Below are positions 5,698 to 64,000 of a DNA stretch of 64,000 bases, one piece after another. The notes beneath the pieces were generated by a model, which saw only the letters and a program-made list of their open reading frames with translations, made no database searches and had not been told where the DNA came from. Every line of letters begins with the position of its first letter. Position 1 is the first letter of the stretch. Source of the stretch: Bacteroidales bacterium (GTDB lineage Bacteria; Bacteroidota; Bacteroidia; Bacteroidales; JAADJA01). The DNA is taken from assembly GCA_020438105.1 (NCBI GenBank), contig JAGQVE010000009.1:1-64000 (forward strand). The letters run 5' to 3'. Both the position numbers and the translations under genes were made by a program.

Positions 5698-5712
5698 CCT
5701 ATTGTTATTCCC

Positions 5713-5749: not shown

Positions 5750-5788
5750 CGATTACATGAATTTCTATAAACAATACTTAGTTGAAAA

Positions 5789-6376: not shown

Positions 6377-6450
6377 AACGCGGATGACACGGATCTTGCT
6401 GATTCTCGCGGATCTGTGTAAATCCGTTTAATCAGGGTCATCCGCGTTCC
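6376..6450. repeat. Palindromic 75-bp element, the GxxExxY-unit repeats without a gene
   Basis: Begins GAACGCGGATGAC and ends with its exact 13-nt inverted complement; the interior is also loosely palindromic and uses the same GCGGAT/TGATT words as the repeats at 1999-2038 and 2408-2445. It fills the whole gap between convergent mocA and xdhB, and xdhB stops inside it (ending MERG). It could fold into a long hairpin that terminates both transcripts. Confidence 0.65.
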
Positions 6451-42359: not shown

Positions 42360-43958
42360 ATGGCTAAACTTAAAACTCCCGGCGTTTATATTGAAGAAAT
42401 CAGTGCATTCCCAAATTCAATCGCACAGGTTGAAACGGCTATACCGGCTTTTGTTGGTTTTACAAAAAAAACGATGGATGGTAATAAGCCATTGTTAAAT
42501 ACGCCTGTGCAGATAAGTTCAATGGCCCAATTCATTCAGGTCTTTGGCGGGGCGCCAAATTACCAGTTTCAATTGCAGGAAGGGTTAGTCACTGGCACTA
42601 TTCAAAACAAATTCGAAAATTTCAACCTTTCCGTCCAGGGAAAAGATTACACGCTGCAAAGGATCGGAAACCGCTACCGGTTATTTGATGCGATCCGTTT
42701 CTTTTACCAGAATGGGGGTGGGGACTGTTACATTGTTTCGGTGGGTGATTACAACACAGATATATCAAAAGGTAGATTTGACGGCACGGATGCCGCTAAT
42801 CCCGGGTTTGGACTGCCGGCACTTGAAAATGAAACTGAGCCAACCATGATCGTGATCCCCGAAGCGGTTTCACTGAGTGCTGAAGATTGCTATTCGGTTT
42901 ATCGGGAGGTTTTATTGCATTGTGAAAAAATGGCAAACCGCATCGGAATTTTTGATGTTCACAATGGCTTTAAAGATCGTCAGGATCCCACAGAACCAAC
43001 CGATGTAATTGATAAGTTTAGAAACGAAATCGGCAATGTGGCATTGAAATACGGTGCCGCTTATTATCCATGGTTGCAAACTTCGGTGATACAGGAATCT
43101 GAGCTTTCATTTCAAAACCTGAGTGATGAGAGTTTGGGTCCGTTTCAGGAACTAATCCAAAGCGAATTGAATTCATCAGGGACTCGTTTGCGTCGTTCTT
43201 TTGTTAAGGATGAAATGGATTTTTATTCAGTTATTCACCGGTACACAAAGGAATATGTAGTACAAAAAACCGCAAACCCCGATTTGGATGAAAACCCTAT
43301 GCCTGAATTTCTGCATCAGTCGCTTTTTCGAATGAGTCCGGCTTATAAACTAATCATCCAGTTTATGAAGGAGCGTTTGAGTTTAATACCTCCCGCGTCA
43401 GCCATGGCAGGCATTTATCCCATGGTTGATAATTCAAAGGGTGTGTGGAAATCACCTGCAAATGTCTCCATGAATTCGGTGATCAAACCTGCCGTAGAAA
43501 TTACCCAGGCAGAGCAAGAAGATTTGAATATTACTTCTTCCGGGAAATCCATCAATGCAATCCGTTCTTTCATTGGCGAAGGGGTGTTGGTATGGGGCGC
43601 CCGCACGCTTGATGGCAATAGCAACGAATGGCGGTACATCAATGTGCTAAGGACGATGATCATGCTGGAGCAATCCATAAAAGCAGGCATCAATGCATTT
43701 GTCTTCGAACCCAATGATGCCAATACCTGGGCAAAGATTAAAAACATGACCGAAAATTTCCTGATCCAGCAATGGAAAATAGGAGCCCTTGCCGGCGCCA
43801 AACCTGATGATGCGTTTGCAGTTAAAGTGGGGCTTGGCGAAACCATGACTTCAAACGATATTTTAAATGGTCTGTTAAAAGTATATGTTATGGTTGCTAT
43901 TCTGCGGCCTGCGGAATTCCTGGTCATGAAAATTGAGGAAAAAATGCTTAATTCCTGA
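42360..43958 (+). CDS. Contractile tail sheath protein (phage tail / eCIS type)
   Basis: A 532-residue tail sheath. The N-terminus KTPGVYIEEISAFPNSIAQV with AFVGFT is typical, and the C-terminal domain contains RYINVLRTMIMLEQSIKAG and FEPNDANTWAKI. These match the sheath subunits of contractile phage tails and of extracellular contractile injection systems (eCIS, such as Afp, PVC and MAC arrays). In those machines the sheath contracts and drives the inner tube through a membrane. The tube gene follows after 18 bp. No baseplate, spike, LysM, AAA+ ATPase or terminator genes are adjacent, so the pair is isolated. The gene starts 329 bp after tRNA-Arg. Confidence 0.88.
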   Translation: MAKLKTPGVYIEEISAFPNSIAQVETAIPAFVGFTKKTMDGNKPLLNTPVQISSMAQFIQVFGGAPNYQFQLQEGLVTGTIQNKFENFNLSVQGKDYTLQRIGNRYRLFDAIRFFYQNGGGDCYIVSVGDYNTDISKGRFDGTDAANPGFGLPALENETEPTMIVIPEAVSLSAEDCYSVYREVLLHCEKMANRIGIFDVHNGFKDRQDPTEPTDVIDKFRNEIGNVALKYGAAYYPWLQTSVIQESELSFQNLSDESLGPFQELIQSELNSSGTRLRRSFVKDEMDFYSVIHRYTKEYVVQKTANPDLDENPMPEFLHQSLFRMSPAYKLIIQFMKERLSLIPPASAMAGIYPMVDNSKGVWKSPANVSMNSVIKPAVEITQAEQEDLNITSSGKSINAIRSFIGEGVLVWGARTLDGNSNEWRYINVLRTMIMLEQSIKAGINAFVFEPNDANTWAKIKNMTENFLIQQWKIGALAGAKPDDAFAVKVGLGETMTSNDILNGLLKVYVMVAILRPAEFLVMKIEEKMLNS

Positions 43959-43976
43959 TCAATTAAATTATCAAGT

Positions 43977-44432
43977 ATGACTGATATCAATTATCCCCCG
44001 GTTGGATTTTATTTTACGATTGCCTTATCAAATGAAGCCGGTGCATCGGAGAGCTCGTTTCAGGAGGTGAACGGTATTTCAACAGATATTGAAACCGCAT
44101 CTATTGACAGTGGTGATGAAAATAGATTTAGATATAAATTGCCCAAACAGACCGGTTATTCAAACCTCGTTTTAAAAAGGGGGTTGCTTTCCAGTGATTC
44201 TGAATTACTGAAATGGGTGCAGAACTGTTTGACAGTTGGATTGACAGATCAGATTGAAGTAAAGCCCCTTTTTGTAAAATTACTGGATAATAATTATGAC
44301 ATAATAAGAAGCTGGACTTTTGAAAATGCCTACCCCATAAAGTTCACCATAGGCAGTTTAATTGCAAATGCACGTGAGGTAGCTGTTGATTCGATTGAGT
44401 TTTCCTACACTCATTTTTCCAGATTATTTTAA
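43977..44432 (+). CDS. Contractile tail tube protein (gp19-like)
   Basis: A 151-residue tail tube protein of the T4 gp19-like family. It opens with YPPVGFYFTIAL and has FQEVNGISTDIETASI, then LVLKRGLLSSDSELLKWVQ, and a final strand AREVAVDSIEFSYTHFSRLF. All are typical of eCIS and phage tubes. It would form the inner tube polymer surrounded by the sheath encoded just upstream. The usual second and third tube genes of eCIS loci are missing. The downstream gene is unrelated, so the two genes may be remnants, or they may supply an otherwise distant locus. Confidence 0.87.
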   Translation: MTDINYPPVGFYFTIALSNEAGASESSFQEVNGISTDIETASIDSGDENRFRYKLPKQTGYSNLVLKRGLLSSDSELLKWVQNCLTVGLTDQIEVKPLFVKLLDNNYDIIRSWTFENAYPIKFTIGSLIANAREVAVDSIEFSYTHFSRLF

Positions 44433-45150: not shown

Positions 45151-47535
45151 ATGAAAAAACTTCTATCACTTCTTATTGCTATAGGTTTATGGATGCCAAA
45201 TATTTGGGCACAATCATTAACTGTTGCCTCCGGAACATTGAATATTGGCGTAATTAACACCGGCGAATCCTCACCGGATGGAGCACACTGGTTTCAGATA
45301 ACGGGAGCAGGATATAATCCTTACGAAATAATTTATGTTGATTCGCCCAGTTTATTATTCACCGTTTCTGAATCGGGTTTAAGCGGAACCTACAATTCAG
45401 CACTTTATTTTACTGCGAATAGCACAGGTGCCATCAGCCAGAATATCTATGTGAAGTATTCTCCCGAAGTAGCCGGAGTGGTTGCTACTCAGCTTACCAT
45501 TTATGAGTTTCAGACGTTTGTTTTTCATTACAAGTCGCTGCAGGGTATAGGCAAGGCTCCGGAAATCATGATGGAAGGAAGGGAATCCGAAGGGGATAGT
45601 TGGGTGGAAATTGTAAATAACGATAATTCAACAACACTCACTGATGGAACTAATTTTGGCGAAACAGCTTATGGTGTAGCAACTTCAATCCGAAAATTTA
45701 AAGTTACCAATAACCTGCCATTGGGCGGATTGAACGGCGACTTACTATTGTTTGAATTTTCTGCCGGGAAAACGATTGAGATAACCGGACCGGAGGCTGA
45801 CCAGTTTTCTGTTGAGCTTGAGCCTGCATCAGTTGTTTACCCCAATTACGATACAACTTATTTTAAAATTGCTTTTACACCCACCTCGTTTGGTTTGAAA
45901 TCGGCCTTTGTAAATATTGCAAATAACGATGGAGATGAAGATCCATTTGTATTTGCTATTTCCGGGTTGGGAATTATCGAACCGGCTGGTATACCGGTCG
46001 TGAAAAAGGCATCTGTTATCGACAATAACAGCTTCCAGGCAAATTGGCTGCCGGGAACAGGCGGTACCCCAACTGGATACTTGCTTGATGTATCGGATGA
46101 CCCCACGTTTTTTGATTTTTTACCCGGTTATCAGGCAAAGAATGTTGGAAATACTACCGCTAAAAGTATCGCGGGTTTGGTAGATGCTACCAATTATTAT
46201 TTCCGCGTGCGGGCTTACAAACCTGGAGATACCTCAACCTATTCGCAAGTGATGAGTTTGAAAACAGCTCCTGAAGTTCCAACTGTATTGCCAGCCTCTA
46301 TCATTGAGCAAAGTGCTTTTTATGCAAACTGGAGTTTTGTATCAGAAGCTACTGCTTACCGGGTTGATGTAAATACTTCGCCGGATTTTACAGGTTTTGC
46401 TGCATTGCAAAATGCTACTGCCACTGCAAATTATCTGCATATTGAGGGACTTACAGGAGGGGTTACTTATTATTACAGGGTAAGAAGCTTTAACGGGGCC
46501 TCAAGTGAAAATTCGGCGGTTATTTCGGCTGTTACGCTGCCCGAAAAACCTGTGGCTAAAATAGCTACCCAGATAATTGATGAGGGATTTACTGCAAACT
46601 GGAGTTTCAGCAATCCCATTTTTGCTGAAGGTTTTTTGCTTGATATTTCTACTGCGCCTGATTTTAGTTCTTTTGTCCCCGGATATGAAAATTATTCAGT
46701 AGGACCTTTTCTCCAGGCTTATATTATTGGATTAAATCCAACCTCTACTTACTATTACCGTGTTAGAACCAGATATGAAAATGATACAACGGATTATTCA
46801 AATATTATTAGTGTTATTACTACTTCATTTGCGCCTGAAGTTCAGGTAAGTGTAAAGGTGTTTATGGAAGGGCCATTTGGTGGGGGACAAATGTCAACCA
46901 TGTTGAACGATCAGGATGTGTTACCCACTTCTCAACCCTATGCCACCGGTCCGTGGAATTATAACGGTTCTGAATCTGTTGGGGCAGTTCCTTCAACAGA
47001 TATCGTGGATTGGGTTTTGCTCCGTTTGCTTAAACGCGATGATGTGGATACCTCCATGTTTTACCTGTTAGGGACAGAGGCTGCATGGCTGCAGAACGAC
47101 GGTCAGGTGATTAATTACAGTGGGGCAGGGGACGTTGGATTTAAAACAGTAGTGGATGGAAACTATTACATACAGGTATTTCACCGAAATCATTTGCCGG
47201 TAATATCAGCGCTTCCGTTAACCGAAGATGAAGGTGTTTATACCTATGATTTTACCCTTGATAATTTGGAAAATTCAATGCAATATGTCGGTCAAAAAGA
47301 GCTTATGACAGGGGTTTGGGGTATGATTGCTGCCGATGCGGATGGAAATGGTGAAATAAATACCATTGATAATAACGGGGTGTGGTATCCGGCTAAAATG
47401 CAATCAGGATATTTAAGAGCAGATTACAACCTTGATGGAACCGTGGACGAATTGGATAAAGCTGGTTACTGGAAAATGAATGTCGGGAAGGGTGTATCAT
47501 CTCAAAATATTCAAATTGTGGGAGATAATTTATAA
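45151..47535 (+). CDS. Secreted FnIII-repeat protein with dockerin-like C-terminus
   Basis: A 794-residue protein with signal peptide (MKKLLSLLIAIGLWMPNIWA). A choice-of-anchor-D/ASPM-like beta region spans about 60-275 and ends NDGDEDPFVFAISGLG. Three fibronectin-III-like modules (about 280-365, 375-460, 465-555) have YYFRVRAY, YYYRVRSF and YYYRVRTR strands. A C-terminal region typical of Bacteroidota surface proteins follows. The end has two EF-hand or dockerin-like calcium loops (ADADGNGEINTID and ADYNLDGTVDELD). No T9SS type A domain is seen. It probably acts in adhesion or matrix binding. Its 3' end overlaps the convergent transporter gene by 6 bp. Confidence 0.75.
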   Translation: MKKLLSLLIAIGLWMPNIWAQSLTVASGTLNIGVINTGESSPDGAHWFQITGAGYNPYEIIYVDSPSLLFTVSESGLSGTYNSALYFTANSTGAISQNIYVKYSPEVAGVVATQLTIYEFQTFVFHYKSLQGIGKAPEIMMEGRESEGDSWVEIVNNDNSTTLTDGTNFGETAYGVATSIRKFKVTNNLPLGGLNGDLLLFEFSAGKTIEITGPEADQFSVELEPASVVYPNYDTTYFKIAFTPTSFGLKSAFVNIANNDGDEDPFVFAISGLGIIEPAGIPVVKKASVIDNNSFQANWLPGTGGTPTGYLLDVSDDPTFFDFLPGYQAKNVGNTTAKSIAGLVDATNYYFRVRAYKPGDTSTYSQVMSLKTAPEVPTVLPASIIEQSAFYANWSFVSEATAYRVDVNTSPDFTGFAALQNATATANYLHIEGLTGGVTYYYRVRSFNGASSENSAVISAVTLPEKPVAKIATQIIDEGFTANWSFSNPIFAEGFLLDISTAPDFSSFVPGYENYSVGPFLQAYIIGLNPTSTYYYRVRTRYENDTTDYSNIISVITTSFAPEVQVSVKVFMEGPFGGGQMSTMLNDQDVLPTSQPYATGPWNYNGSESVGAVPSTDIVDWVLLRLLKRDDVDTSMFYLLGTEAAWLQNDGQVINYSGAGDVGFKTVVDGNYYIQVFHRNHLPVISALPLTEDEGVYTYDFTLDNLENSMQYVGQKELMTGVWGMIAADADGNGEINTIDNNGVWYPAKMQSGYLRADYNLDGTVDELDKAGYWKMNVGKGVSSQNIQIVGDNL

Positions 47536-51172: not shown

Positions 51173-51823
51173 CTAAATTTCGATCAGGTGGTTACGTATG
51201 GCAAATTTGATGAGTTCAACGGTTGATTTCAGTTCCAGCTTTTGCATGATATGATTTTTGTGGGATTCCACAGTTCGTGTTGAAATATAGAGCATATCGG
51301 CGATCTCTTTGTTGTTTTTACCTTCGGCAAACAAAGTCAGGATTTCGGTTTCACGTTTGGTTAGTTCCTTTTCCTGTTCATCTGCTTCATCTTTTTTGGC
51401 CTTTTTGATATAACTTTTCAAGATGATATTGGAGACCGGTTCAGCAAAGAACTCTTCGCCGTTAAAAACCTTTTCAATGGCTTCCAGTAATTCGCTTCGG
51501 CTTGTGTTTTTGGGCAGGTAAGCCATCGCTCCGGCTTTGATCGCATTAAAAATAAAATCCTCATTCAGGTGCATCGACAGAATGATAACCCTGATTTCAG
51601 GATAATCTTCCTTTAACTTTTTGGTGATCTCTATGCCTGATATGTCGGGCAAACTGATATCTAGAATGGCCACATCCGGGAGGCCGGTTTTGAGCAACGT
51701 GAAAAACTCACGTGCCGAGGAGGCTTCGTTGATAACTTCGATGTGTTCCGATTGGATGAGTGCTTTTATTCCATCGCGGACGATAGCATGATCGTCGACG
51801 AGCATTACTTTAATAGTTGCCAT
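51173..51823 (-). CDS. NarL/FixJ-family response regulator
   Basis: A 216-residue regulator with receiver domain (VDDHAIVRDGI; phospho-aspartate in VAILDISLPDISG near residue 53; lysine in LPKNTSRSE) and a LuxR-type helix-turn-helix at the C-terminus (LTKRETEILTLFAEGKNNKEIA, then STRTVESHKNHIMQKL). Its start overlaps the end of the histidine kinase by 14 bp, so the two are a co-translated pair. Targets are unknown; the multiheme cytochrome operon directly upstream and the amt unit directly downstream are the nearest candidates. Confidence 0.93.
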   Translation of the reverse strand: MATIKVMLVDDHAIVRDGIKALIQSEHIEVINEASSAREFFTLLKTGLPDVAILDISLPDISGIEITKKLKEDYPEIRVIILSMHLNEDFIFNAIKAGAMAYLPKNTSRSELLEAIEKVFNGEEFFAEPVSNIILKSYIKKAKKDEADEQEKELTKRETEILTLFAEGKNNKEIADMLYISTRTVESHKNHIMQKLELKSTVELIKFAIRNHLIEI

Positions 51824-53582
51824 TATTGTTTGTAATTAATGGTATTTCAATATTTAATCTCGTTCCCTTGCCTGATTCGGAAATAAATTCGATATTTCCA
51901 TTCAACAGCCGTACCCTTTCCCGCATATTGGGTATTCCTGATCCGCCTTTTTCCGGTTGCTCCGGCATTTCTATACCTTTTCCATTGTCCTGTATCATTG
52001 CAAAAACTGCTTCCGGATTTCTTTCGATATGAAGGGTTGCCCGGCTTGCATCAGCATGTTTTACCATGTTGTTCAAGGCTTCCTGAATGATCCTGAAAAT
52101 GTAAATGGTGATTCGTTGGGATAAGTCGTTAAGCTGGCCTTTGGAGCTGAATTCGATATTCATGCCTGTTGTGTCGGCGATGCTGTTACATAAATTCTTA
52201 AGTGCAGTAATCAAACCGAATTCCAGCAGCACGGCCGGCATCAGGTCGTTCGATATCCTGCGGATTTCATTGATGGTATCGTCGAATGCAATGCAGGTTT
52301 GCTCAATTGTTTCGAGCGTATCTTCATGCCTTTTGCCCTCTGCCGCAGCCAGCATTAGTTTAAGTGCAATGAGGGATTGCCCCAGTCCGTCGTGCAGTTC
52401 TCTGCTCAGCCGTTGCCGTTCAAGTTCCTGTCCGTCGATCATTGCGGTAATGCGCATATTACGCTCTGTTTGAAGCTCTGTTTCCTTCGATTTCAGCGTG
52501 TGGGCCATTTCATTAAACGAATTAGTCAATTGGCCGATCTCGTCGTTTTTAATTTTGGGCAGGGAAACATCCAAATCTCCCTCCTGAATATGCTTCGTGG
52601 CGTCATTGAGTTTAATCAGGGGTAGTGTAATCCGTTTGGAAAATACAAATGAAATAATGAAAACCACAGCTACCACAAGAATTGAAAGAAGCAGAATATT
52701 ATTTCTTATCCAATAAATTGATTTGGTAGCTTCCTTGTAATCAATTTCGGCAAGGATTACCCAATTTAATCCGGGCACATTTAATTTGCTATACGAACTC
52801 AGAACTTCTATTCCCCTGTAATCCATGATCATAGTGGTACCAGTTTGACCTTCCTGGGCTTGTTTTACAGCATCCGTTCGGACCTCGGTTTTTAAAATGG
52901 ACTCAGTTTGAAACCTGGAGCTGCTTCGCATTAATCCATCAAATCCCACAAGGTACGATTCCCCGGAATGACCCAGGCCTGAAGCCGGATTTTTTTCCAG
53001 CATGATCAGGTTAATCGCATCGAGGGATATTTCCAGAGCAATTTGAACCGAAACATTGTTTTGGATTTTATAAATACCTGTAATAAACATACGAGGTTGC
53101 CCGCTTATTGAATCGAACACGTAATCATGAAGAACTGGAATTTGGTTAGTTGCTGAAATGACCTGGGCCAAAACCTGATAATCCCTCATTCCCGATTGGG
53201 CATAAAAGTCAGGTCCATTTTTTAAATTAAATGAAATGATTGATTTATCCGGTTTGATAAAATATATTGCTTTGTAATAATTGCTGGATTGCAAATGTTC
53301 CAGAATAAAACAATCAATCGCTTTAAAAATCATTCCTGAATCTGCATTAATGGGCAGGTTCTCCGTGTTCAAAACCAGCAACATCTCGCTTAACCGATCA
53401 TTGAAAAACTGCTCTATTTGTCCTTTTTTAACCACCCTCACAGATGTGAGCTGATCAAAAGTCCGGTCGAGCAAAGCATTTTTCGAAGTATGAAATGAGT
53501 AGGTGCTTACCGCCGCAATGGCAATGATTCCAATAGTAACGAAATATAATACGATTTTTTCTGCGAGTGATCTTATCCTCAT
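51810..53582 (-). CDS. Membrane sensor histidine kinase (HisKA_3, NarX-like)
   Basis: A 590-residue kinase. A first membrane segment (about residues 10-30) is followed by a periplasmic Cache-type sensor (about 35-285) and a second membrane segment (near 300). A HAMP domain follows, then the H-box RLSRELHDGLGQSLIALKLM near 393, and a HATPase domain with EALNNMVKHADAS near 500 and GSGIPNMRERVRLLNG. It phosphorylates the adjacent NarL-type regulator. The Cache domain implies an extracellular small-molecule signal. A -7 box 17 nt before its ATG indicates a promoter separate from the cytochrome operon. Confidence 0.92.
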   Translation of the reverse strand: MRIRSLAEKIVLYFVTIGIIAIAAVSTYSFHTSKNALLDRTFDQLTSVRVVKKGQIEQFFNDRLSEMLLVLNTENLPINADSGMIFKAIDCFILEHLQSSNYYKAIYFIKPDKSIISFNLKNGPDFYAQSGMRDYQVLAQVISATNQIPVLHDYVFDSISGQPRMFITGIYKIQNNVSVQIALEISLDAINLIMLEKNPASGLGHSGESYLVGFDGLMRSSSRFQTESILKTEVRTDAVKQAQEGQTGTTMIMDYRGIEVLSSYSKLNVPGLNWVILAEIDYKEATKSIYWIRNNILLLSILVVAVVFIISFVFSKRITLPLIKLNDATKHIQEGDLDVSLPKIKNDEIGQLTNSFNEMAHTLKSKETELQTERNMRITAMIDGQELERQRLSRELHDGLGQSLIALKLMLAAAEGKRHEDTLETIEQTCIAFDDTINEIRRISNDLMPAVLLEFGLITALKNLCNSIADTTGMNIEFSSKGQLNDLSQRITIYIFRIIQEALNNMVKHADASRATLHIERNPEAVFAMIQDNGKGIEMPEQPEKGGSGIPNMRERVRLLNGNIEFISESGKGTRLNIEIPLITNNNGNY

Positions 53583-53670: not shown

Positions 53671-55284
53671 CTAAAACCGGTAGCTGATATTGGCATACAA
53701 ACGATTATAAGTGCGGGGTTTCTCAAATGTTCCTTCGTAGTTTGCTCCAAAGGAGAACTTTTTATTCAATTTCCAGGTCAGGTTCAAATCAGCTATGCTT
53801 TGCGCAATATTGATCTCGTAGTTTATGTATTTGTAATCCACCATCCGGTAGCTGAAACCACCAAATAATTTACCCGGAATAATATCACGGTTCAAGGCTA
53901 TTGAATAGATATTCCCTGTTAAATATGCAGTTTCTAGCAGTGTTGCTGAAAGTGTTACTGAAGCGTCAATACCCGGAACCCTTGTATAAGTTACGTAACC
54001 ATAAAGGTTTCTGGAAGGATTCGGGTCGGAAGGACGAGAACGGTAACCTCCGTTTACTCCAACGGACAGGAACTTGAGAGGCCTGTAGTTGACCTGTAAG
54101 CGCCATCCCTGAAGGGTTTCTGTTTCAATTAATTTGTCAATGAAACTCTTGAAGGTTTCATAATAAACAATGTTGTTACGCGCACTGTATGATGCTGAAA
54201 GTGATAATTGCCTCACCGGCCGGTAACGCAACATGAAATACATGTTGGTTAAATCAAAAGTCGATTGTGCAACTTCGTTCACCTTTTTATACAAGTCTAC
54301 TTCCAAAGAAGCAAAGAAATAGATGTTTTTAACCAGAGCATTGCTATGCTGCAAATATGCAAAGCGACGGTCGGTATTGCCATTATTAGTTTGTTCGAGG
54401 AATGAAACGGTATTTTGCATTAAGCCATGCTCACCTTTCAGATCGTGGGAGAGGTAAGCGCCGTATTGAAGCAGATCGAAGTTAAATCCATAATTTTGGT
54501 AATCTGGTCTTGACCCCAAAATTAATCCACCTGTAAATTTTCCGAACATTTTCTCAAATTGCAAGCCGTCAATAGCACCGGCATTTGCCATTCGCTGGTT
54601 TATTTTCCGTCCGATGATTGTCCGGGTTGTGGAATTAAAATCATAGGTGACAGCAAGGTTATAAATCTTTAAACCGTTAAAAACATTTTCCTGGATCTCA
54701 TTCCATCGCTGGTTTGAGTGAATAAATGAAATATAAGTATCAACAGAGGTTTTTGAATTATTTATATGTTCTGCATTCAAGGTAAATGTGTACCGCATCC
54801 GCTGGTTAAACGGGGCACCTGTATTTGAATAGTTGGAATAGGATGCAACCCGAACCCGTCCCCGAATGCGTTCCTGATTTAATAATTCTTCTTCTGTTTT
54901 AGCCTTCATCTTTGTACTGTCCGTCACATCAATTACGATAGCTGGTACTTGCTCAGTTGGTTCAGCTGTTTCAACCTCTGGCATAAGATTGACCTTTGCC
55001 TGAACCTTATCACCGGTATTCAAAATAACACCTTCAATGGGCGTTCCTACCACAGAAATAGAGGAACTGTTAGTAACTACCATAGCAGGGATCAGTTTTC
55101 CATCTTTCACCAATTTAATGGTGTCACCTACCTGAATGCCTTCCGTAGATTCAAATTTTACATACACACTTTGTGAAGTAACATAGGAAACTGAACCTTC
55201 AGTTTGTGATTGTTCATTTTGTGAGAGTAGGTTTAGGCTGATTAATGCGACCGATAATATTGTGATAATTATTCTCATACGCAT
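53671..55284 (-). CDS. Outer-membrane beta-barrel protein of the multiheme cytochrome operon
   Basis: About 537 residues from the ATG at 55284 (a second ATG at 55278 is equally good): signal peptide RIIITILSVALISLNLLSQN. A small beta domain of about 90 residues follows (VSYVTSQSVYVKFESTEGI onward), SH3-like and similar to FlgT-type domains. An acidic linker comes next, then about 390 residues of alternating strands ending in the aromatic NISYRF, as outer-membrane barrels do. It starts only 4 bp after the 70-heme gene stop, so it is translated with it. By position it corresponds to the porin of porin-cytochrome conduits (MtrB/PioB), though I see no clear MtrB similarity. A general porin is the alternative. 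Confidence 0.75.
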   Translation of the reverse strand: MRMRIIITILSVALISLNLLSQNEQSQTEGSVSYVTSQSVYVKFESTEGIQVGDTIKLVKDGKLIPAMVVTNSSSISVVGTPIEGVILNTGDKVQAKVNLMPEVETAEPTEQVPAIVIDVTDSTKMKAKTEEELLNQERIRGRVRVASYSNYSNTGAPFNQRMRYTFTLNAEHINNSKTSVDTYISFIHSNQRWNEIQENVFNGLKIYNLAVTYDFNSTTRTIIGRKINQRMANAGAIDGLQFEKMFGKFTGGLILGSRPDYQNYGFNFDLLQYGAYLSHDLKGEHGLMQNTVSFLEQTNNGNTDRRFAYLQHSNALVKNIYFFASLEVDLYKKVNEVAQSTFDLTNMYFMLRYRPVRQLSLSASYSARNNIVYYETFKSFIDKLIETETLQGWRLQVNYRPLKFLSVGVNGGYRSRPSDPNPSRNLYGYVTYTRVPGIDASVTLSATLLETAYLTGNIYSIALNRDIIPGKLFGGFSYRMVDYKYINYEINIAQSIADLNLTWKLNKKFSFGANYEGTFEKPRTYNRLYANISYRF

Positions 55285-55288
55285 CTGT

Positions 55289-58200
55289 TTAGCGGGTTCT
55301 TTCAATTTGCATATTTACTGGTGATTTACCATTGCCGTTGGGGTGACATGAATAACAACCTGCATTACCCTGGCTTTGATGGTGCGCATTGGAATGGCAA
55401 TTAATACAATCAAATATGGTGAAATTACCGGGTGTAGTGTGACAATCGATACATTGATCCCATTCTCCCTGATGTTTTCCGGAATATATCGGGAAGTATT
55501 GACTGTCATGGTTAAATGTTGATGGTGTCCATGCGGTTTGTGAATGACAGGGTTCGCAATCAGTCGGGAATTGTGCCAACTGGTGATTCGGATCATTGGT
55601 TGAATTATAGTCACCTTCATGGCATCCAAAACATGTATTGGGTGTATTGCTGTAGCTGCCCTCATGGCATTCAAAACAATCATTTGCAATGCTTGCATGC
55701 GCTCCCTGCAACTGGTAGAAATCATCATGCACCGGGAATGTGGCCGGTTGCCAGTTAGGGTTGGTAGTGTGGCACTGAGCACAATCGTTTGTCAATCCAA
55801 GGTCATTGTGATCAGGATTGGATGTTGCATTATAATTCTCAATATGACAGCCGGCACACTCATTGGGTGTGTTGGTGTAATTGCCTTCATGACAATCAAA
55901 GCAGGAAACCGTTTCGTGTGCACCGGTAAGCGGATAGAACTCATCATGACCGCTGTAACTGGCCGGTGACCAGCCCGGGTTGGTTGTATGGCAAACCTGG
56001 CATTCGGTGGGATAACCACTTTCAATATGATTCGGATCAGTAGTTTGATTGTAGTTTTCAATATGGCAACCTGAACACTCATTGGGTGTGTTACCGTAAC
56101 CTCCCTCGTGGCAGTCGTTACATGAGATGCTCGCATGTGCGCCGGTTAGCGGAAATACATTTTCATGATTCGCGTAATTGGCCGGCGACCATCCTGGATT
56201 TGTTGTATGGCACTCATCACAGTTGGTTGAGAATCCATTACCTGAGTGATCAGGATTGGTGGTTTGATTATAATTCTCGATATGACAGCTTTGGCACTCA
56301 TTGGACATATTGGTGTAATTACCCTGGTGGCACTCATTACATGATATTGTTTCATGTGCACCGGTTAAGGGCCAGATATCATCATGATTATTGAATGTTG
56401 CGGGCGACCAACCTGGACTGGTGGTGTGGCAAATTTCGCATTCTTGCGGGAATCCTGATTCAATGTGATTCGGATCCGTAGTTTGATTGTAATTATCAAT
56501 ATGGCATCCGGCACACTCGTTTGGAGTATTGGTATAGCTGCCTTCATGACAATCATAGCAAGAAATGGTGGTATGCGCTCCATTTAACGGGAAGAAGTTA
56601 TCATGGTCAGCATAAGTAGCTGGTGACCAGCCCGGATTAGTTGTATGGCATTCTTCACAAGTGGTCGCAAAACCGATTTCACCATGATCCGGATCAGTTG
56701 TTTGGTTATAATTACTTATGTGGCAACTGGCACACTCATTCGGAATGGTGGTGTAATTACCCTGATGACATTCGTTACATGAGGTTGTTTCGTGAGCTCC
56801 TGTTAGTGGCCAGATTTCATCATGTCCGTTGTATGAAGCAGGTGACCAGCCCGGACTCGTGGTATGGCAAATTTCGCATTCTTGCGGGAATCCTGATTCA
56901 ACGTGATTTGGATCATTCGTTTGATTGTAGTTGTCGAGGTGGCATCCCACACACTCGTTAGGAGTGTTGGTATAGCTTCCTTCATGACATTCATAACACG
57001 AAATTGTGGTATGTGCTCCATTCAATGGGAAGAAGTTATCATGTTCAGCAAAAGTGGCCGGTGACCAGCCAGGATTTGTGGTATGGCACTCTTCACAGGT
57101 GGTTGCAAAACCAATTTCGCCATGATCCGGATCCGTAGTTTGGTTATAATTATTAATATGGCAACTTGCACACTCATTCGAAATGGTGGTGTAATTACCC
57201 TGATGACATTCGTTACATGAGATTGTTTCGTGTGCTCCGGTTAATGGCCAGATTTCATCATGCGTGCTGAAACTTGCAGGCGTCCAACCCGGATCAGTTG
57301 TATGGCAAATATTACATTCCTGAGGGAATCCTGCCTGAACGTGGTTGGGGTCAGTAGTTTGATTGAAATTTTCAATATGACAGGCCACACACTCACTAGG
57401 TGTGTTTTCATAACTTCCCTGGTGGCAATCAAAACAATCTACGGTTGAGTGAGCCCCATCAAGTGGGAAATTGGTTAAACCGTGGTCAAATCCTGTTGCA
57501 TTTCCGCCGTCGGGGTGACATTCAAGACAGTTAATACTATTATAAACGTAGCCAGGAATGCCTTCATGCTCATCATCCATTTCGCCCTGCGGGTGGCAGG
57601 TCAAACACTGGAATATGGCATAGTTTGTCGGGTCGCTGTGGCAATCACTGCATTGATCCCATTCACCTTCATGCTCTCCTGAATAGATCGGGAAATACTG
57701 ATTATCATGGTTAAAAGTTGAAGGCTCCCATGCATTCTGATTATGGCACATTTCACAATCTGTTGGGAACTGTGCTGCCTGGTGGTTGGGATCGTTTGTT
57801 GAAGTATAATCCTCCTGGTGGCAACCATAACATGTATTCGGAGTTGTTGTGTAATTGCCTTCGTGGCACTCAAAGCAGTTATTGGCTATAGCAACGTGTG
57901 CTCCTTCCAGAACATAATACTCATCATGAACCGGGAATGTGGCGGGCTGCCAGTCGGGATCAGTGGTATGGCACAATGCACAATTGTTTGTCAATCCCAA
58001 TTCATTGTGATCAGGATTTGAAGTTTGGTTGAAATTCTCGATATGACAACCGGCACATTCGTTGGGTGTATTGGTGTAACTACCCTGATGACAATCGAAA
58101 CAGGTAGCCGAAGTGTGGGCTCCCGTTAAGGGCCAGATTTCGTCATGACCGCTGTAATTTGCAGGAGTCCAGCCCGGATTTGTTGTATGACAAACCTCAC

Positions 58201-60505
58201 ATTCGGTTGGGAATCCTGATTCAACGTGATTTGGATCAGTTGTTTGATTATAAGCATCTATATGGCAGCTTGCGCATTCATTGGAGGTATTGGTATAACC
58301 GCTTTCATGGCAATCAATACAGGATGCGGTAGTATGCGCTCCGGTCAATGGCCAGATTTCGTCATGTCCGTTAAAGGTAGCTGGACTCCAGCCAGGTTGT
58401 GTGGTGTGGCAAATTTCACATTCCTGAGGAAATCCTGATTCTACGTGATTAGGATCCGTCGTTTGATTAAAGTTGTCGAGGTGGCAGGATACACAAGTGT
58501 TGGGTGTGTTTCCGTAATTGCCTTCGTGACAGGCAAAACAATCCACACCTGCATGTCCACCATCAAGGATAAATCCTGTAGCCGAGTGATCAAACCCAGA
58601 TGCACTGCTGCCATCGGGGTGGCATTCCAAACATGCGATACTATTATATACGTATCCCGGGAATCCCTGGTGCTCCTCATTCATCTCTGGCTGCGGGTGG
58701 CAGGTTAAACACTGGAATATAGCATAGTTACCCGGATCATTATGACAATCCATACACTCTTCCCATTCGCCCTCATGACTTCCACTGTAAATTGGGAAAT
58801 ACTGCGCGTCATGATTAAAATTAGCAGGTTCCCATGCTGTTTGTGAGTGACAGGTTTCACATTCTGTCGGGAATTGTGCTGCAATGTGATTTGGATCTGT
58901 GGATTGATTGTATTCATCGGCATGGCAGCCAAAACAGGTGTTTGGTGTTGTGGTATAATTTCCCTGGTGACATTCAAAACAATCCGCAGCGATGGTGACG
59001 TGCGCGCCTTCCAGCACATAATATTCGTCATGAACCGGGAATTGTGCGGGTTGCCAGTCGGCATCCGTGGTGTGGCACTGGGCACAATCGTTCGAAATTC
59101 CAATGCTGATGTGATTGGGATTGGTGGTTTGCTCGTAGTTGATCTGGTGACAACTCACACACTCGTTGGGAGTGTTGGCATAAACACCTTCGTGGCAATC
59201 AAAACAAGTGGCCGAAAGGTGTTCTCCAGTAAGCGGATATATCTCATCGTGCATCGGGAATTGGGCAGGTGTCCATTCCGGATCAGTGGTATGACATTCA
59301 GCACAATCGTTGGCAATTCCAACTTCCATGTGGTTTGGATTGGTGGATTGCTCATATTCCTGGATATGACAATCGTAGCAATACATGGTAGTTCCTTCAT
59401 AACCGCCTTCATGGCACTCAATACAATCGGTATTTAAGTGAGCTCCGGTTAACGGGAAGTTGGTGGCGGCATGATTAAATGTATTTTCAGCATCTCCTGT
59501 TGGGTGGCATTCAAAACATGCAATGCTTTCGTAAATATATCCATTCACTTCATCATGCTCATCATCAGAATCAGGTTTGTTATGATCATGGCAATCGATG
59601 CAGGAGAATACATTGTAATTATTACCAACAGTGTGGCATTCGCTACAGTTGTTCCATTCATCTTTGTGCCCACCTGAGTATATCGGGAAATATTGCGCAT
59701 CATGAATGGTGAAGTCGGCCGGTTTCCAGTCGGGGGAAGTTGTATGACACTCTGAGCAATCCGTTGATAATTCTGCGGCAGCATGGTTCGGATTAATTGA
59801 TGCCATATAATCGACTTCGTGGCAGGCAAAACAATCTGTAGGTGTGTTGCTGTAATCATTATTGGTGTGGCACTGTGCGCAATCATTAATTGCGTGACCT
59901 TCTACCAATGGGAAAAAACTATGGTTGATATTTGTTCCTGTCCAGGTAGTTCCGTCTACACGGTGACATTCAATACAGTCCGTAGAAAAACCGCTTTCAG
60001 TATGATTGGGATCGGTGGTGGCGTTATAATCAGCTTTATGACAGTCATAACATTCAATTCCGAGTGGCTCAAAAACAAGGGTAGAAGCTGATGGGTGACA
60101 TTGATAACAATCGGCCGTGGCGTGGGGGCCGAGTAGTGGAAATCTGCTTCTTTGGTGAATCTCTGTAATATTATCTACGATCCAGGATTTTGGGGTATGA
60201 CATTCGGCGCAGTTTGTTCCCAAAGTTTCCTGGTGCATATCCGTATGGCAGGAGATACACTCACTACCAGCTTCCTTAAATTTTAAAGTAGGGTGACATC
60301 CAACACAAGCGGCATCCTGATGCATTCCTGTGAGCGGAAAACTGGTTTTTCCATGATCAAAGGTATATGTTCCTGCTTCCAGTTTCCAGCTTTTTGAGTT
60401 ATGGCAGTCGGTACACGACATGTCAAAGTCGCTGCCATGAGGCGATTGCGCAAAAATACTACCTGTTAGCGCCAGTAACAGGACTATTTGTGACAGGATT
60501 CGCAT
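55289..60505 (-). CDS. Giant multiheme c-type cytochrome, about 70 CxxCH motifs
   Basis: A 1738-residue exported cytochrome (signal peptide MRILSQIVLLLALTGSIFAQ). By eye it has 70 CxxCH heme-binding motifs, about one per 25 residues. The core unit of about 70 residues carries three motifs, for example CEICHTTSPGW, then CNECHQGNYT, then CASCHISNYNQT. Extra histidines (GHDE, LTGAH, DPDH) could serve as distal ligands, giving bis-His low-spin hemes. Four related blocks with FPIYSG, near residues 268, 565, 933 and 1665, divide the chain. There is no lipobox and no T9SS domain. It overlaps the 20-heme gene by 22 bp and precedes the barrel gene by 4 bp. A long electron wire across or outside the envelope is the likely role; the partner is unknown. 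Confidence 0.93.
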   Translation of the reverse strand: MRILSQIVLLLALTGSIFAQSPHGSDFDMSCTDCHNSKSWKLEAGTYTFDHGKTSFPLTGMHQDAACVGCHPTLKFKEAGSECISCHTDMHQETLGTNCAECHTPKSWIVDNITEIHQRSRFPLLGPHATADCYQCHPSASTLVFEPLGIECYDCHKADYNATTDPNHTESGFSTDCIECHRVDGTTWTGTNINHSFFPLVEGHAINDCAQCHTNNDYSNTPTDCFACHEVDYMASINPNHAAAELSTDCSECHTTSPDWKPADFTIHDAQYFPIYSGGHKDEWNNCSECHTVGNNYNVFSCIDCHDHNKPDSDDEHDEVNGYIYESIACFECHPTGDAENTFNHAATNFPLTGAHLNTDCIECHEGGYEGTTMYCYDCHIQEYEQSTNPNHMEVGIANDCAECHTTDPEWTPAQFPMHDEIYPLTGEHLSATCFDCHEGVYANTPNECVSCHQINYEQTTNPNHISIGISNDCAQCHTTDADWQPAQFPVHDEYYVLEGAHVTIAADCFECHQGNYTTTPNTCFGCHADEYNQSTDPNHIAAQFPTECETCHSQTAWEPANFNHDAQYFPIYSGSHEGEWEECMDCHNDPGNYAIFQCLTCHPQPEMNEEHQGFPGYVYNSIACLECHPDGSSASGFDHSATGFILDGGHAGVDCFACHEGNYGNTPNTCVSCHLDNFNQTTDPNHVESGFPQECEICHTTQPGWSPATFNGHDEIWPLTGAHTTASCIDCHESGYTNTSNECASCHIDAYNQTTDPNHVESGFPTECEVCHTTNPGWTPANYSGHDEIWPLTGAHTSATCFDCHQGSYTNTPNECAGCHIENFNQTSNPDHNELGLTNNCALCHTTDPDWQPATFPVHDEYYVLEGAHVAIANNCFECHEGNYTTTPNTCYGCHQEDYTSTNDPNHQAAQFPTDCEMCHNQNAWEPSTFNHDNQYFPIYSGEHEGEWDQCSDCHSDPTNYAIFQCLTCHPQGEMDDEHEGIPGYVYNSINCLECHPDGGNATGFDHGLTNFPLDGAHSTVDCFDCHQGSYENTPSECVACHIENFNQTTDPNHVQAGFPQECNICHTTDPGWTPASFSTHDEIWPLTGAHETISCNECHQGNYTTISNECASCHINNYNQTTDPDHGEIGFATTCEECHTTNPGWSPATFAEHDNFFPLNGAHTTISCYECHEGSYTNTPNECVGCHLDNYNQTNDPNHVESGFPQECEICHTTSPGWSPASYNGHDEIWPLTGAHETTSCNECHQGNYTTIPNECASCHISNYNQTTDPDHGEIGFATTCEECHTTNPGWSPATYADHDNFFPLNGAHTTISCYDCHEGSYTNTPNECAGCHIDNYNQTTDPNHIESGFPQECEICHTTSPGWSPATFNNHDDIWPLTGAHETISCNECHQGNYTNMSNECQSCHIENYNQTTNPDHSGNGFSTNCDECHTTNPGWSPANYANHENVFPLTGAHASISCNDCHEGGYGNTPNECSGCHIENYNQTTDPNHIESGYPTECQVCHTTNPGWSPASYSGHDEFYPLTGAHETVSCFDCHEGNYTNTPNECAGCHIENYNATSNPDHNDLGLTNDCAQCHTTNPNWQPATFPVHDDFYQLQGAHASIANDCFECHEGSYSNTPNTCFGCHEGDYNSTNDPNHQLAQFPTDCEPCHSQTAWTPSTFNHDSQYFPIYSGKHQGEWDQCIDCHTTPGNFTIFDCINCHSNAHHQSQGNAGCYSCHPNGNGKSPVNMQIERTR

Positions 60506-62091
60506 TTGTTATCAATTTTGTATTGAATATAAATTTTATTATCACTGGTTTCTGTTGGTTTATGACATTCCTTACAGGCAACTTTTTCGTGTGCACCTTT
60601 CAGACTGAATAATGTTTTATCATGGTCGAAACGACTTGCTGGTTTAAAGGCTTTAAAATCGTGGCACGCAAAACAATCAATCTGGCCTACTTTTTCAAAT
60701 TGACCGAAATGAATATCAATATGACAATTAACGCAGCTCTCAGGAAGGTCAGCAAACTGCTGATGCAGCGGGCCGCTCTCGTCTTGCTTAAAATGACACG
60801 AACGGCATGTTTGCTTTTCATGTGCACCCTGCAATTTGTATTCCGTTTGATTGTGGTCAAAATTTATCTCACTCCAGCGGCTTTCGGTATGGCAATTTTT
60901 GCAGGCTGATTCAGGGTAATATTTCTTATTCAGATATGGCTGGTGTATATCTTCATGACAATCGGCACATTTTTTCCCGATAGATCTGAACTTCCAGTCG
61001 GCCTCGGGATCTTTTTTGTGGCAGGCAAAACAGGGTGTTGCAAGGTGGGCTCCATTTAATTTAAATTCACTCTCATTGTGTTTTTCCACAGTAAACGATG
61101 ATTGATTAAATCCATCAACTGTGTGACATTCCTGGCAATCGGTAATCAATCTGTCCTTTTTAAAATCACCATTATGGTAATCACGATGGCAATTGGTGCA
61201 TTTGCTTGTCCAGATTGGATCAGTGTAATTTACTTTATGGCAAAGTTTACAATCTACTTGCTGATGTTTCCCTTCAAGTTTGTAATCGGTTTTATCATGA
61301 TCAAAGCGGTTGGTGGTTTTTAATTCGCGGAAAGAGAATTCTGTGTGGCACTCACTACAATTAGGACCAAATTTATTATTGTGAACATCCTGATGGCAGT
61401 TTACGCAGCTTTCAAACTTCAAACCTTTAAATGCCTGAAAGTCCTTGCCTCCTCTAACTTCCATTTTATGGCATTTTGCACATTCTACATCTTTGTGCTT
61501 GCCAACCAGTTTGTAATCGGCTTTATCGTGGTCGAATTTCGGTGCAGGTTTAAACTTTTCAAAATTGTGACAGTTTGCACATTCGTTTGATAATGTTTTT
61601 TGATGGTAATCCTCATGGCAACTCAAACACTCGGTTTTCAACCCCATATAAGTGTATTTCTTCTTTTTAATGTCATTACTTGATATATAATCTTTTTTAT
61701 GGCAATCAATGCATTCCTTTTTTGCATGCGCTCCTTCAAGTTTATATCCTGTTAGGTTATGGTCAAATTGATCCTTGTTAAACCGGATCATTTCAAACTC
61801 CCGGCCATGATGTTCGCTGTGACATGAAAAACAATCCTTCCCTTTAACATCAGATGAAGCATGATATCCCAAACTTTGATTTACCCGCGACTTAAGCTCT
61901 TTATGACAATCGAGGCATTTGTCGTTTGAAACTTTATCACCAAGAATATGACATTGAGTGCAATTGGAGAGGCCCTCCAGGTCGGCATGTGATTTTGTTA
62001 AATCACCCGGAGATATTTGTGCATTAACGGTTGTTAAATTAAATCCGAGCCAAGATAATACAATAATATAAGTAATCTTCCTGATAAGCAT
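60484..62091 (-). CDS. Multiheme c-type cytochrome, 20 CxxCH motifs
   Basis: A 535-residue cytochrome with signal peptide (to about VNAQIS) and 20 CxxCH motifs by eye, in irregular repeats. Each repeat has a pattern like FDHDKTDYKLEGKH, where the His residues are likely distal ligands, followed by CxxCH. It is lysine-rich and basic, unlike the acidic 70-heme protein encoded next, which would favour electrostatic docking. Its stop lies 22 bp inside the start of that gene. Presumably periplasmic, it would take electrons from the membrane oxidoreductase encoded upstream and pass them to the giant cytochrome. Confidence 0.93.
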   Translation of the reverse strand: MLIRKITYIIVLSWLGFNLTTVNAQISPGDLTKSHADLEGLSNCTQCHILGDKVSNDKCLDCHKELKSRVNQSLGYHASSDVKGKDCFSCHSEHHGREFEMIRFNKDQFDHNLTGYKLEGAHAKKECIDCHKKDYISSNDIKKKKYTYMGLKTECLSCHEDYHQKTLSNECANCHNFEKFKPAPKFDHDKADYKLVGKHKDVECAKCHKMEVRGGKDFQAFKGLKFESCVNCHQDVHNNKFGPNCSECHTEFSFRELKTTNRFDHDKTDYKLEGKHQQVDCKLCHKVNYTDPIWTSKCTNCHRDYHNGDFKKDRLITDCQECHTVDGFNQSSFTVEKHNESEFKLNGAHLATPCFACHKKDPEADWKFRSIGKKCADCHEDIHQPYLNKKYYPESACKNCHTESRWSEINFDHNQTEYKLQGAHEKQTCRSCHFKQDESGPLHQQFADLPESCVNCHIDIHFGQFEKVGQIDCFACHDFKAFKPASRFDHDKTLFSLKGAHEKVACKECHKPTETSDNKIYIQYKIDNKCESCHK

Positions 62092-62107
62092 GCTGTCAAT
62101 TTTTGAA

Positions 62108-63442
62108 CTAGTGTTTCAATAAAGCTTCACCGTATTTTTTGGTAATTTCCAGGCCGATTTTCTTTAAAAACTGGGTGGGTAGTTCACCCCCTGCAAAAAT
62201 ATAGACCAGGTCGTTTTTGATAACAATCGGCTCATCCGGTTTGCCATTTAACAGATGAACTTCATGATCCCTGATTTCTTTTACATTGGTATTAAATAAC
62301 ACTTCAACTTTTCCTTCTTTAATGGCCTTATTTATCCGTTCGCTGTTTTTTGGCTTAACCCTGCTAAAAGATTCTTTTCGGTACGAAAGTGTAACTTTAT
62401 TGTGTTCAGCAAGCAACATCGCCGATTCAACTGCTGAATCACCTCCGCCAACAACCAAAATGTTTTTCCGTTCAATATGCTCCGGTTCAAGAAGCCGGTA
62501 GGCTACTTTTTCAGTAATCTCGCCCGGAACCTCAAGTTTACGTGGTGTCCCCCTTCGGCCAATGGCAAGCAATACATGTTTGGCTGTATATTTTTTACCA
62601 TTTAAAGTTTCCACCTCAAAATAATCATCAATTGCAATAATTGATTCAACCTTACAATTTTCCTGGATTTTGATATCGTTTTTATTCAGAGCTTCATTCC
62701 ATACCTTTAATAACTCGGCTTTGTTGGTTTCGTTAAGTTTTACTTTTCCGTAAAGAGGCAGGTCCATCGGCGAAGTCATTACAATTTTAGAACGCGGAAA
62801 AGTGAAAACAGTACCACCCAGTGTATCCTGCTCAAGGGTGATGAATTTTAAGTTGTTTTTTTTAGCTGTCAGTGATGCCGATATACCGGCAGGTCCTGCT
62901 CCAACAATCAGGAGATCAAACGCTGCATTATGCTGTTTTTTTACATTGGTGGTCAGGTATTCCACGGCTTGTTTACCCTGCTCCGCCGCATTTTTGATCA
63001 ATCCCATTCCTCCAAGTTCACCTGCAATTGAAATTCCGGGTACATTGGATTCAAATTTCTGATTTACATGAGGCAGGTCAACTCCCCTTGTTTCGGTGCC
63101 AATGCACAGACTTATGGCCTGGGTAGGGCAGGCGTGAAAACAGGCCCCATGGCCTACGCATCTTGAGGCATTAATAGCTGTTGCTTTGCCTCTCCTGATG
63201 CCAATGATATCACGTTCAGGGCATGCTATGATGCATGCACCTGTTTTGATACAACTGTTTTCATCAATGACGGGATGAAGGGAGATGGGTTCGTAAAGTC
63301 CGGTTTCCTTGGCTTTTTCTATTTTTTCTTCCACCTGCCGCGATTCCCTTGCTTGTTTGCGGAGATAAATCCAAACCACAATACCACACAGGAGTAGTAC
63401 AAATCCGTAGACTATTATATTTTCAATTAGCTGTTCTGACAT
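62108..63442 (-). CDS. Membrane-anchored ferredoxin-type NAD(P)/FAD oxidoreductase
   Basis: A 444-residue protein. One N-terminal membrane helix (YGFVLLLCGIVVWIYL) is followed by two ferredoxin-like motifs, CIKTGACIIACP (about residue 63) and CVGHGACFHACP (about 94). A flavin domain then has LLIVGAGPAGISAS near 178 and an NAD(P) domain has ILVVGGGDSAVESAM near 328, in the thioredoxin-reductase-like fold but without its CxxC. Both Fe-S motifs lack the second cysteine (Thr and His instead), which seems normal for this subfamily. It lies 16 bp upstream of the 20-heme gene and could exchange electrons between NAD(P)H, ferredoxin sites and the membrane cytochrome. Confidence 0.85.
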   Translation of the reverse strand: MSEQLIENIIVYGFVLLLCGIVVWIYLRKQARESRQVEEKIEKAKETGLYEPISLHPVIDENSCIKTGACIIACPERDIIGIRRGKATAINASRCVGHGACFHACPTQAISLCIGTETRGVDLPHVNQKFESNVPGISIAGELGGMGLIKNAAEQGKQAVEYLTTNVKKQHNAAFDLLIVGAGPAGISASLTAKKNNLKFITLEQDTLGGTVFTFPRSKIVMTSPMDLPLYGKVKLNETNKAELLKVWNEALNKNDIKIQENCKVESIIAIDDYFEVETLNGKKYTAKHVLLAIGRRGTPRKLEVPGEITEKVAYRLLEPEHIERKNILVVGGGDSAVESAMLLAEHNKVTLSYRKESFSRVKPKNSERINKAIKEGKVEVLFNTNVKEIRDHEVHLLNGKPDEPIVIKNDLVYIFAGGELPTQFLKKIGLEITKKYGEALLKH

Positions 63443-63448
63443 AATTTA

Positions 63449-64000
63449 TTAAAATATCCATCGATAACCGAAAGTAATCGTCACGATGATATGGATCACC
63501 ATAATAATTAACATAACCAAAGCAAATGGAAGGTGGGCAACATGCCAGTATTTGAAAAGGTTTTGCATTGTTTTTAAACGTCCGATCCGCCGTTCAAGAG
63601 CAAGTTCATCATTAACTATTTTAAGAACACTTTTTCTTTCCTTATGAGTTAAGCTGGTACTTTTGAGGATTTTTTTAACTGTTTTCAGCGCTTTACGATC
63701 CTCCATATACTGGCTTCCCAATCCTTTTAATGGTTTCTGCCTAACGTCTTCCTGGTCGAGTTTGGTTGTTGCAATAATACTTTTATAGCTTTCTTCGTCA
63801 AGATTGTATTCTTCATGCAACATTGCACTCAAATTGGTTTTTAAGTCCCGGATTTCATTGAGGGTAAGTGCGCGGCCTTCAATGGAACGTGGTATTTGAA
63901 TATAAATAAACCTGCCGGCAACTCCACTGGCAAACACCGCCACCATACTCCAGAAACTCACCGAAACAATACCTCCGAATTTAAATGCAGTGTGAAAAAG
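63449..64000 (-). CDS. Membrane protein with candidate b-type heme histidines, C-terminal part
   Basis: The frame is open to the right edge, so the N-terminus lies beyond the window; about 183 residues are visible. A membrane segment (HTAFKFGGIVSVSFWSMVAV, then SGVAGRFIYIQIPRS), a cytoplasmic helical part of about 100 residues, and a final hydrophobic hairpin containing YWHVAHLPFALVM and IMVIHIIV are seen. Histidines in these segments are placed like heme b ligands in cytochrome b561 or ferric-reductase-type proteins. A GTG at 63961 could be read as a start, but in-frame hydrophobic codons continue upstream. The gene ends 6 bp before the FAD protein and opens the visible cytochrome operon. 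Confidence 0.7.
   Translation of the reverse strand, partial: LFHTAFKFGGIVSVSFWSMVAVFASGVAGRFIYIQIPRSIEGRALTLNEIRDLKTNLSAMLHEEYNLDEESYKSIIATTKLDQEDVRQKPLKGLGSQYMEDRKALKTVKKILKSTSLTHKERKSVLKIVNDELALERRIGRLKTMQNLFKYWHVAHLPFALVMLIIMVIHIIVTITFGYRWIF

Follow-up and report, generated by a model that had tools for sequence, protein, structure and literature searches.

What would five adjacent genes for an inner-membrane protein, a flavoprotein, two multiheme cytochromes (MHCs) and an outer-membrane barrel do together in a member of the Bacteroidota? The genes lie at one end of a 64,000-nucleotide stretch of DNA from a Bacteroidales bacterium (assembly GCA_020438105.1, contig JAGQVE010000009.1, positions 1 to 64,000), hereafter the window. 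We propose, with moderate confidence, that they specify a single trans-envelope electron conduit whose architecture resembles that of PCC3, a system described from Gallionellaceae and other Proteobacteria (PMC5566968), and that this conduit is fed by the iron-sulfur (FeS) and flavin adenine dinucleotide (FAD) protein and most likely runs outward. A sequence-only reading of the window had suggested a trans-envelope conduit, and the suggestion is well supported by the conservation of the five-gene unit, the near-perfect co-occurrence of its members, the wide plug-less barrel that is predicted, about two histidines per heme and the heme-b motifs of the membrane protein.

The five genes form a conserved unit

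The open reading frames and the tight spacing reported by the sequence-only reading for a leftward set at 53671-64000 (−22 to +16 bp) were borne out, and the operon is closely packed, with successive distances of +6, +16, −22 and −17 bp (Table 1). The last overlap depends on the start codon of the barrel gene: an in-frame ATG lies 21 bp past the TTG start, and its use turns the overlap into a gap of about 4 bp. The repeat array of the MHC70 gene is no obvious assembly artefact, since the longest exact direct repeat within it is about 40 bp and relatives possess homologous heme arrays of other lengths.

Table 1. The five genes of the cluster (window coordinates).
Gene product	Position	Strand	Features
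MEM, inner-membrane protein	63449..64000, cut by window end (full gene at contig 63449-64318)	minus	289 aa, about 5 transmembrane (TM) helices
FeSFAD, membrane-anchored flavoprotein	62108..63442	minus	444 aa; FeS, FAD and NAD(P) motifs
MHC20, 20-heme cytochrome	60484..62091	minus	535 aa, Sec signal, constant heme spacing
MHC70, 70-heme cytochrome	55289..60505	minus	1738 aa, 23 triheme units (about 73 aa) plus one heme, Sec signal
Outer-membrane beta-barrel	53671..55284 (ATG start) or to 55305 (TTG open reading frame)	minus	small N-terminal beta domain and 22 predicted strands

FeSFAD, MEM and the barrel were each searched for in one set of 296 genomes sampled across the phylum, a full-length flavoprotein being accepted at E<=1e-90. 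MEM and the barrel were present in the same 29 genomes, and FeSFAD in 28 of these; every intact cluster contains both the flavoprotein (28/28) and the barrel. The odd genome (G140, contig C56, ~46016-47135) retains a MEM gene with internal stops beside a 130-aa C-terminal remnant of the barrel, apparently a decayed copy from which the middle genes have gone. Multiheme genes were found, or a contig end was reached, at all 27 other phylum loci retrieved and at all 14 loci retrieved from the window's order. Moreover, pairwise protein distances are correlated across loci (r 0.81-0.93 overall and 0.60-0.77 within the type A loci described below; 0 of 2000 permutations gave values as high), a pattern that joint inheritance of the subunits would produce. 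The five genes are thus a real conserved unit.

The distribution of the set is patchy, through horizontal transfer, loss or both. Only two of the 29 carriers, the window genome and G134, belong to the window's class, the rest being scattered over other classes. In the order to which the window belongs, the set is present in 15 of 149 genomes and is missing from another species of the same genus. The closest carriers with a name are MAG39, a metagenome-assembled genome (MAG) of the Bacteroidetes, and plasmid pEMTOL02 of Emticicia oligotrophica (DSM 17448), where genes EMTOL_RS21090-21110 make up the cluster and a CcsA-type gene for cytochrome c assembly lies upstream of it. Both have all five genes in the order of the window, an order that is also kept by its relatives in the same taxonomic order; the search for a conserved gene order in Bacteroidota was therefore positive.

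Two arrangements were distinguished. In type A (the window, MAG39, Emticicia, 13 phylum loci and 14 loci of the window's order), MEM is followed, sometimes after a gene for a TPR protein, by the flavoprotein, MHC20, the homologue of MHC70 (MHCn) and the barrel. In type B the order is MEM, MHC20, MHCn (sometimes with an extra 9-10-heme gene), barrel and flavoprotein. The MEM gene stands about 15 kb away in genome G294, and on another contig in G290 and G393. The idea that the gene order retraces an electron path through the envelope consequently holds for type A but fails for type B, where the flavoprotein gene comes last.

One cytochrome of fixed length and one of variable length

MHC20 and MHC70 contain exactly 20 and 70 CxxCH motifs, as the sequence-only reading had counted, and the larger number is far above expectation (0.9 motifs on average and 4 at most in shuffled MHC70). 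The same reading had called the 20-heme protein basic, which did not stand: its net charge is +1, and those of its homologues range from −51 to +45. MHC70 has a net charge of −223, an acidity that is likewise not conserved among homologues. The pairing of a basic MHC20 with an acidic MHC70 was therefore rejected as a functional feature.

The two proteins differ in what is kept constant. Of 40 MHC20 genes, 30 encode 20 hemes and three encode 23, the remainder including genes truncated at locus ends; the heme spacing is constant. In MHC70, a spacing of about 33/15/25 is repeated along the protein, which scores 51.8 bits against the c7 triheme domain TIGR04257, above the curated cut-off of 40. 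The N-terminal spacing of MHCn proteins is fixed in all of them (36-16-16-34-19-25-32-16-25 or close to it, simpler in the 10-heme forms) and the C-terminal spacing mostly so, whereas the number of triheme units between the two ends varies. This triheme stepping is visible in the heme counts, which equal 1 modulo 3 in 45 of 51 MHCn-type genes with at least 9 hemes (10, 13, 16, 19, 22, 25, 28, 31, 34, 37, 40, 43, 46, 49, 55, 58 and 64), as does the 70 of the window; among the exceptions are truncated frames and separate genes for 9-12 hemes. Neighbouring pairs of triheme modules reach about 85% DNA identity with a 438-bp period, which points to growth of the array by tandem duplication.

The cytochromes have a median length of about 26 aa per heme, and most contain some 2.0-2.3 histidines per heme, the number needed for bis-His ligation throughout and expected of a wire, not of an enzyme. 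The MHC20 profile matches GSU1996 (3ov0) and entry 6r2q; against the DmsE-family decaheme models, MHC20 and MHC70 gave only 20 and 45 bits, below the cut-off of 192. On these sequence features, MHC20 is probably a wire spanning the periplasm, its length fixed by the width of the envelope, and MHC70 and its MHCn counterparts are probably a wire reaching the outer surface, whose reach is free to vary. Separately, one locus (L046, genome G263, contig C127, 3128-7652) contains beside the main cluster a 34-heme gene, a 10-heme gene and a gene for a 191-aa membrane protein with HX13H and SGXXG motifs, apparently a second and smaller inner-membrane/cytochrome module.

Barrel, membrane protein and flavoprotein

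The barrel was modelled with AlphaFold2 on 26 homologues, and all structure models were made without the plasmid locus L010. The model (mean pLDDT 83.8) has an N-terminal beta domain (residues 26-98) and 22 strands (139 to 536) without a plug, in keeping with the outer-membrane barrel expected from the sequence. Its solved matches are the barrels of TonB-dependent receptors, usher pores and OprD-type porins (Z 16-20, 7-13% identity), and no one solved family stands out. The protein matches no Pfam family, that of MtrB included; MtrB is also absent among the solved-structure matches listed, which excludes nothing. The barrel, wide and plug-less in the model, is compatible with a cytochrome sheath, which is its probable role. 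A generic porin, which would have spoken against a dedicated conduit, was rejected: across the 296 genomes the barrel never occurs without MEM.

The hydropathy profile of MEM has 5 segments. The candidate heme-b ligands first noticed in the window turned out to be conserved: WX3HX13H is found on TM3 and TM5 and SGXXG on TM4, and the two HX13H motifs and SGXXG are present in 19 of the 19 homologues aligned, the TM3 motif lacking its leading W in four of them (L051, L058, L059 and L064). The same motifs were printed by He et al. (2017) for the inner-membrane proteins of PCC3 and PCC4, where they were read as di-heme-b and the proteins likened to ferric reductase/NADPH oxidase domains (PMC5566968). 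No match to the ferric reductase family PF01794 (FRD/NOX) was obtained in 19 MEM members, even at E<=1. We consider that MEM is probably a di-heme-b subunit crossing the inner membrane.

FeSFAD contains all the FeS, FAD and NAD(P) motifs ascribed to it by the sequence-only reading. An N-terminal TM anchor is followed by a basic stretch, and the positive-inside rule suggests that the protein faces the cytoplasm. Two ferredoxin-type clusters have altered motifs (CxxTxxCxxxCP and CxxHxxCxxxCP) in which the second cysteine is replaced, by serine or threonine in the first motif (type A) and by an invariant histidine in the second. The nucleotide folds for FAD (GAGPAG) and NAD(P) (GGGDSA) are of the YpdA/thioredoxin reductase (TrxR)/ferredoxin-NADP reductase type, and the closest solved relatives belong to these same three kinds of enzyme. 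The bacillithiol disulfide reductases YpdA/Bdr have a conserved cysteine in the glycine-rich FAD motif. In 29 FeSFAD sequences the FAD and NAD(P) motifs are kept, and the former reads GxGP(A/S/G)G with no cysteine at the catalytic place; the score against the YpdA/Bdr model is 155.7 bits, below the curated cut-off of 339.9. A thiol-disulfide reductase, YpdA/Bdr included, was therefore rejected, given this score and the lack of a catalytic disulfide. In other bacteria, ferredoxins with such cysteine substitutions hold [3Fe-4S] clusters, those of the histidine type at a comparatively positive potential (PMC6237146), which would suit the delivery of electrons to hemes. A fused relative of 800-830 aa, in which the reductase part is joined to distant ferredoxin domains, occurs at five loci in other settings without multiheme genes (L068-L072), with about 40% identity to FeSFAD over residues 123-433.

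Source and direction of the electrons

How might these parts work together? We infer that they form a complex in which, on the simplest reading, electrons would pass from NAD(P)H to FAD, the FeS clusters and the two b-hemes of MEM, and then through MHC20 and MHCn to the outside. The flavoprotein, facing the cytoplasm, would take electrons from NAD(P)H or exchange them with ferredoxin; this added module probably feeds the conduit with cytosolic electrons. MHC20 would bridge the periplasm, receiving electrons from the b-hemes of MEM. One of the two cytochromes would thread the 22-stranded barrel, and the giant one would reach outside over a length set by its number of triheme units. The acceptors there may be Fe(III) minerals, humics or partner cells.

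The same conduit could instead be coupled to quinones, MEM acting as a quinol-oxidising cytochrome b and the flavoprotein as a side entry or a redox-balancing valve. He et al. proposed quinone exchange for the inner-membrane proteins with identical motifs (PMC5566968), and the published Proteobacterial PCC3 clusters are of four genes, without a flavoprotein (PMC12442390). However, free quinol entry would not require the flavoprotein, which no intact phylum cluster lacks (28 of 28) and which is distance-correlated with the other subunits, and we regard quinone coupling as unlikely. We hold it equally unlikely that the conduit serves uptake, from Fe(II), metal, a partner cell or a cathode, possibly reducing NAD(P)+. 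Porin-cytochrome conduits can run either way (PMC10734462), PCC3 is discussed mostly in iron oxidisers, and oxidase-type genes are present in the window genome. Inward flow to the potential of NAD(P)H, against the inside-negative membrane potential, would nevertheless be unfavourable without an energy source, the cluster encodes no coupling subunit, and the His-type cluster is expected to lie above the potential of NAD(P)H. Export, by comparison, fits both the expected potentials and the membrane potential and is, on thermodynamic grounds, more likely than uptake.

It is still less probable that the cytochromes are mainly an electron reservoir, that is, a periplasmic or surface capacitor buffering redox swings with no dedicated terminal acceptor. 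Such a role has been raised for giant cytochromes (PMC11495043, PMC10734462) and would agree with the free variation of MHCn between 10 and 70 hemes and with the presence of the set on the Emticicia plasmid, but it leaves unexplained both the obligate wide barrel and the contrast between a fixed MHC20 and a variable MHCn. Finally, an enzyme of the nitrogen or sulfur cycle, to which the multiheme proteins would belong and which the barrel would serve as substrate pore, is highly improbable and was rejected on histidine/heme ratios and family matches: nitrite, hydroxylamine and tetrathionate enzymes do include multiheme cytochromes, but about two histidines per heme leave no obvious five-coordinate active-site heme, the families matched are c7/c3-type electron-transfer cytochromes, and the flanking genes contain no conserved catalytic partner.

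Several points weigh against the outward conduit that we favour. An anaerobic, mineral-respiring lifestyle is not to be assumed, as three oxidase-type genes of the heme-copper family are present in the window genome and the Emticicia species, an aerobe, carries the set. MHC70, for which a surface location is predicted, has a plain Sec signal. The use of NAD(P)H by FeSFAD is read only from its fold, and heme-b binding by MEM from its motifs, the predicted MEM structure being poor (pLDDT 70.4) and matching no fold among solved structures. The direction of flow is not set by the sequence, and the function of PCC3 itself was still unverified in 2025 (PMC12442390). We put forward only tentatively the more specific proposal of a quinone-independent cable leading directly from cytosolic NAD(P)H or ferredoxin to the surface, made of an NADPH-oxidase-like module, a fixed periplasmic wire and a tunable outer wire of 10-70 hemes, patchy in Bacteroidota and plasmid-borne at least once.

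Members of the Bacteroidota are plentiful in sediments, wastewater and soils and seldom figure among the bacteria regarded as electroactive. The outward conduit would extend a predicted, PCC3-like class to this phylum, with an apparent direct intake of electrons. Giant cytochromes are here linked to a definite five-gene unit that is conserved and occurs in about one in ten of the phylum genomes sampled. The membrane-protein motifs, the barrel and the flavoprotein supply search markers; the naming of a likely electron entry makes PCC3-type systems testable, and a named strain, E. oligotrophica DSM 17448, carries the set.

Neighbouring genes

Flanking genes are mostly unshared across loci. Directly downstream of the cluster on the same strand (51173-53582), the window encodes a Cache-domain histidine kinase and a LuxR-type response regulator, which are not conserved with it. 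This two-component system and AmtB, likewise downstream, were rejected as cluster parts, being absent from the families conserved around other loci. Elsewhere in the window are a likely molybdenum-hydroxylase cluster (2422-10946: a YgfK-like Fe-S flavoprotein, molybdenum hydroxylase subunits, XdhC-like and MobA-like genes), a repetitive secreted protein of 2653 aa with an apparent Bacteroidota C-terminal sorting sequence (28105-36066), and genes resembling those for a tail sheath and a tail tube, which may be a fragment of a contractile injection system (42360-44432).

Comparison with known systems

Giant cytochromes in Bacteroidota MAGs are on record as undescribed (PMC11495043), as is an uncharacterised cytochrome/barrel cluster in anode-enriched Bacteroidetes (PMC8258643). 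A literature search for PCC3 together with Bacteroidetes gave no paper reporting PCC3 there. A plasmid search for Proteobacterial counterparts retrieved only porin-less relatives of MEM, with 24-30% identity. On plasmids of Alteromonas, Acetobacter, Methylophaga and Rhizorhabdus (L074-L077), such porin-less modules consist of a 2Fe-2S protein, a motif-bearing membrane protein and a 7-heme cytochrome, and they adjoin hydrogenase or copper-related genes.

With MtrCAB, MtoAB and PioAB the cluster shares the logic of a multiheme wire in a porin sheath, a weak similarity of MHC20 and MHC70 to DmsE/MtrA-type decaheme models, and the profile match of MHC20 to entry 6r2q. It differs from them in that there is no decaheme MtrA or MtrC orthologue, the predicted 22-strand barrel has no MtrB-family Pfam match, and the inner-membrane partner is a cytochrome b-like protein with a flavoprotein, not CymA. 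The triheme-repeat cytochromes of Geobacter (GSU1996, PDB 3ov0; TIGR04257) are likewise extended heme chains of tandem c7-like triheme units; GSU1996 has four such units, whereas MHC70 has 23, is part of a cluster with a barrel and an inner-membrane module, and has a histidine count implying bis-His ligation throughout. The resemblance to NADPH oxidase/FRD proteins lies in an NAD(P)H-FAD module that would feed a membrane protein with paired HX13H on TM3 and TM5. However, the flavoprotein here is TrxR/YpdA-like with ferredoxin domains, not the FAD/NAD domain of NOX, and there is no Pfam FRD match.

The sequence-only reading had considered the combination unlike any known system, which proved right in part. 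Four roles match PCC3: a wide porin, a periplasmic MHC of about 20 hemes, a giant repeat MHC and a five-helix inner-membrane protein of about 300 aa with identical motifs (TM3, TM5 and TM4). The MHCs of PCC3 have about 21 hemes (21/24/27) in the periplasmic form and 10-85 in the giant one, at about 26 aa per heme, against 20/23 and 10-70 here, and its barrel has up to 42 predicted segments against 22 strands. The extra FeS/FAD/NAD(P) subunit and the host phylum, Bacteroidota, in contrast, lie outside the description of PCC3. We therefore liken the cluster to PCC3 by its published description and do not call it PCC3 proper, since its composition differs by the flavoprotein.

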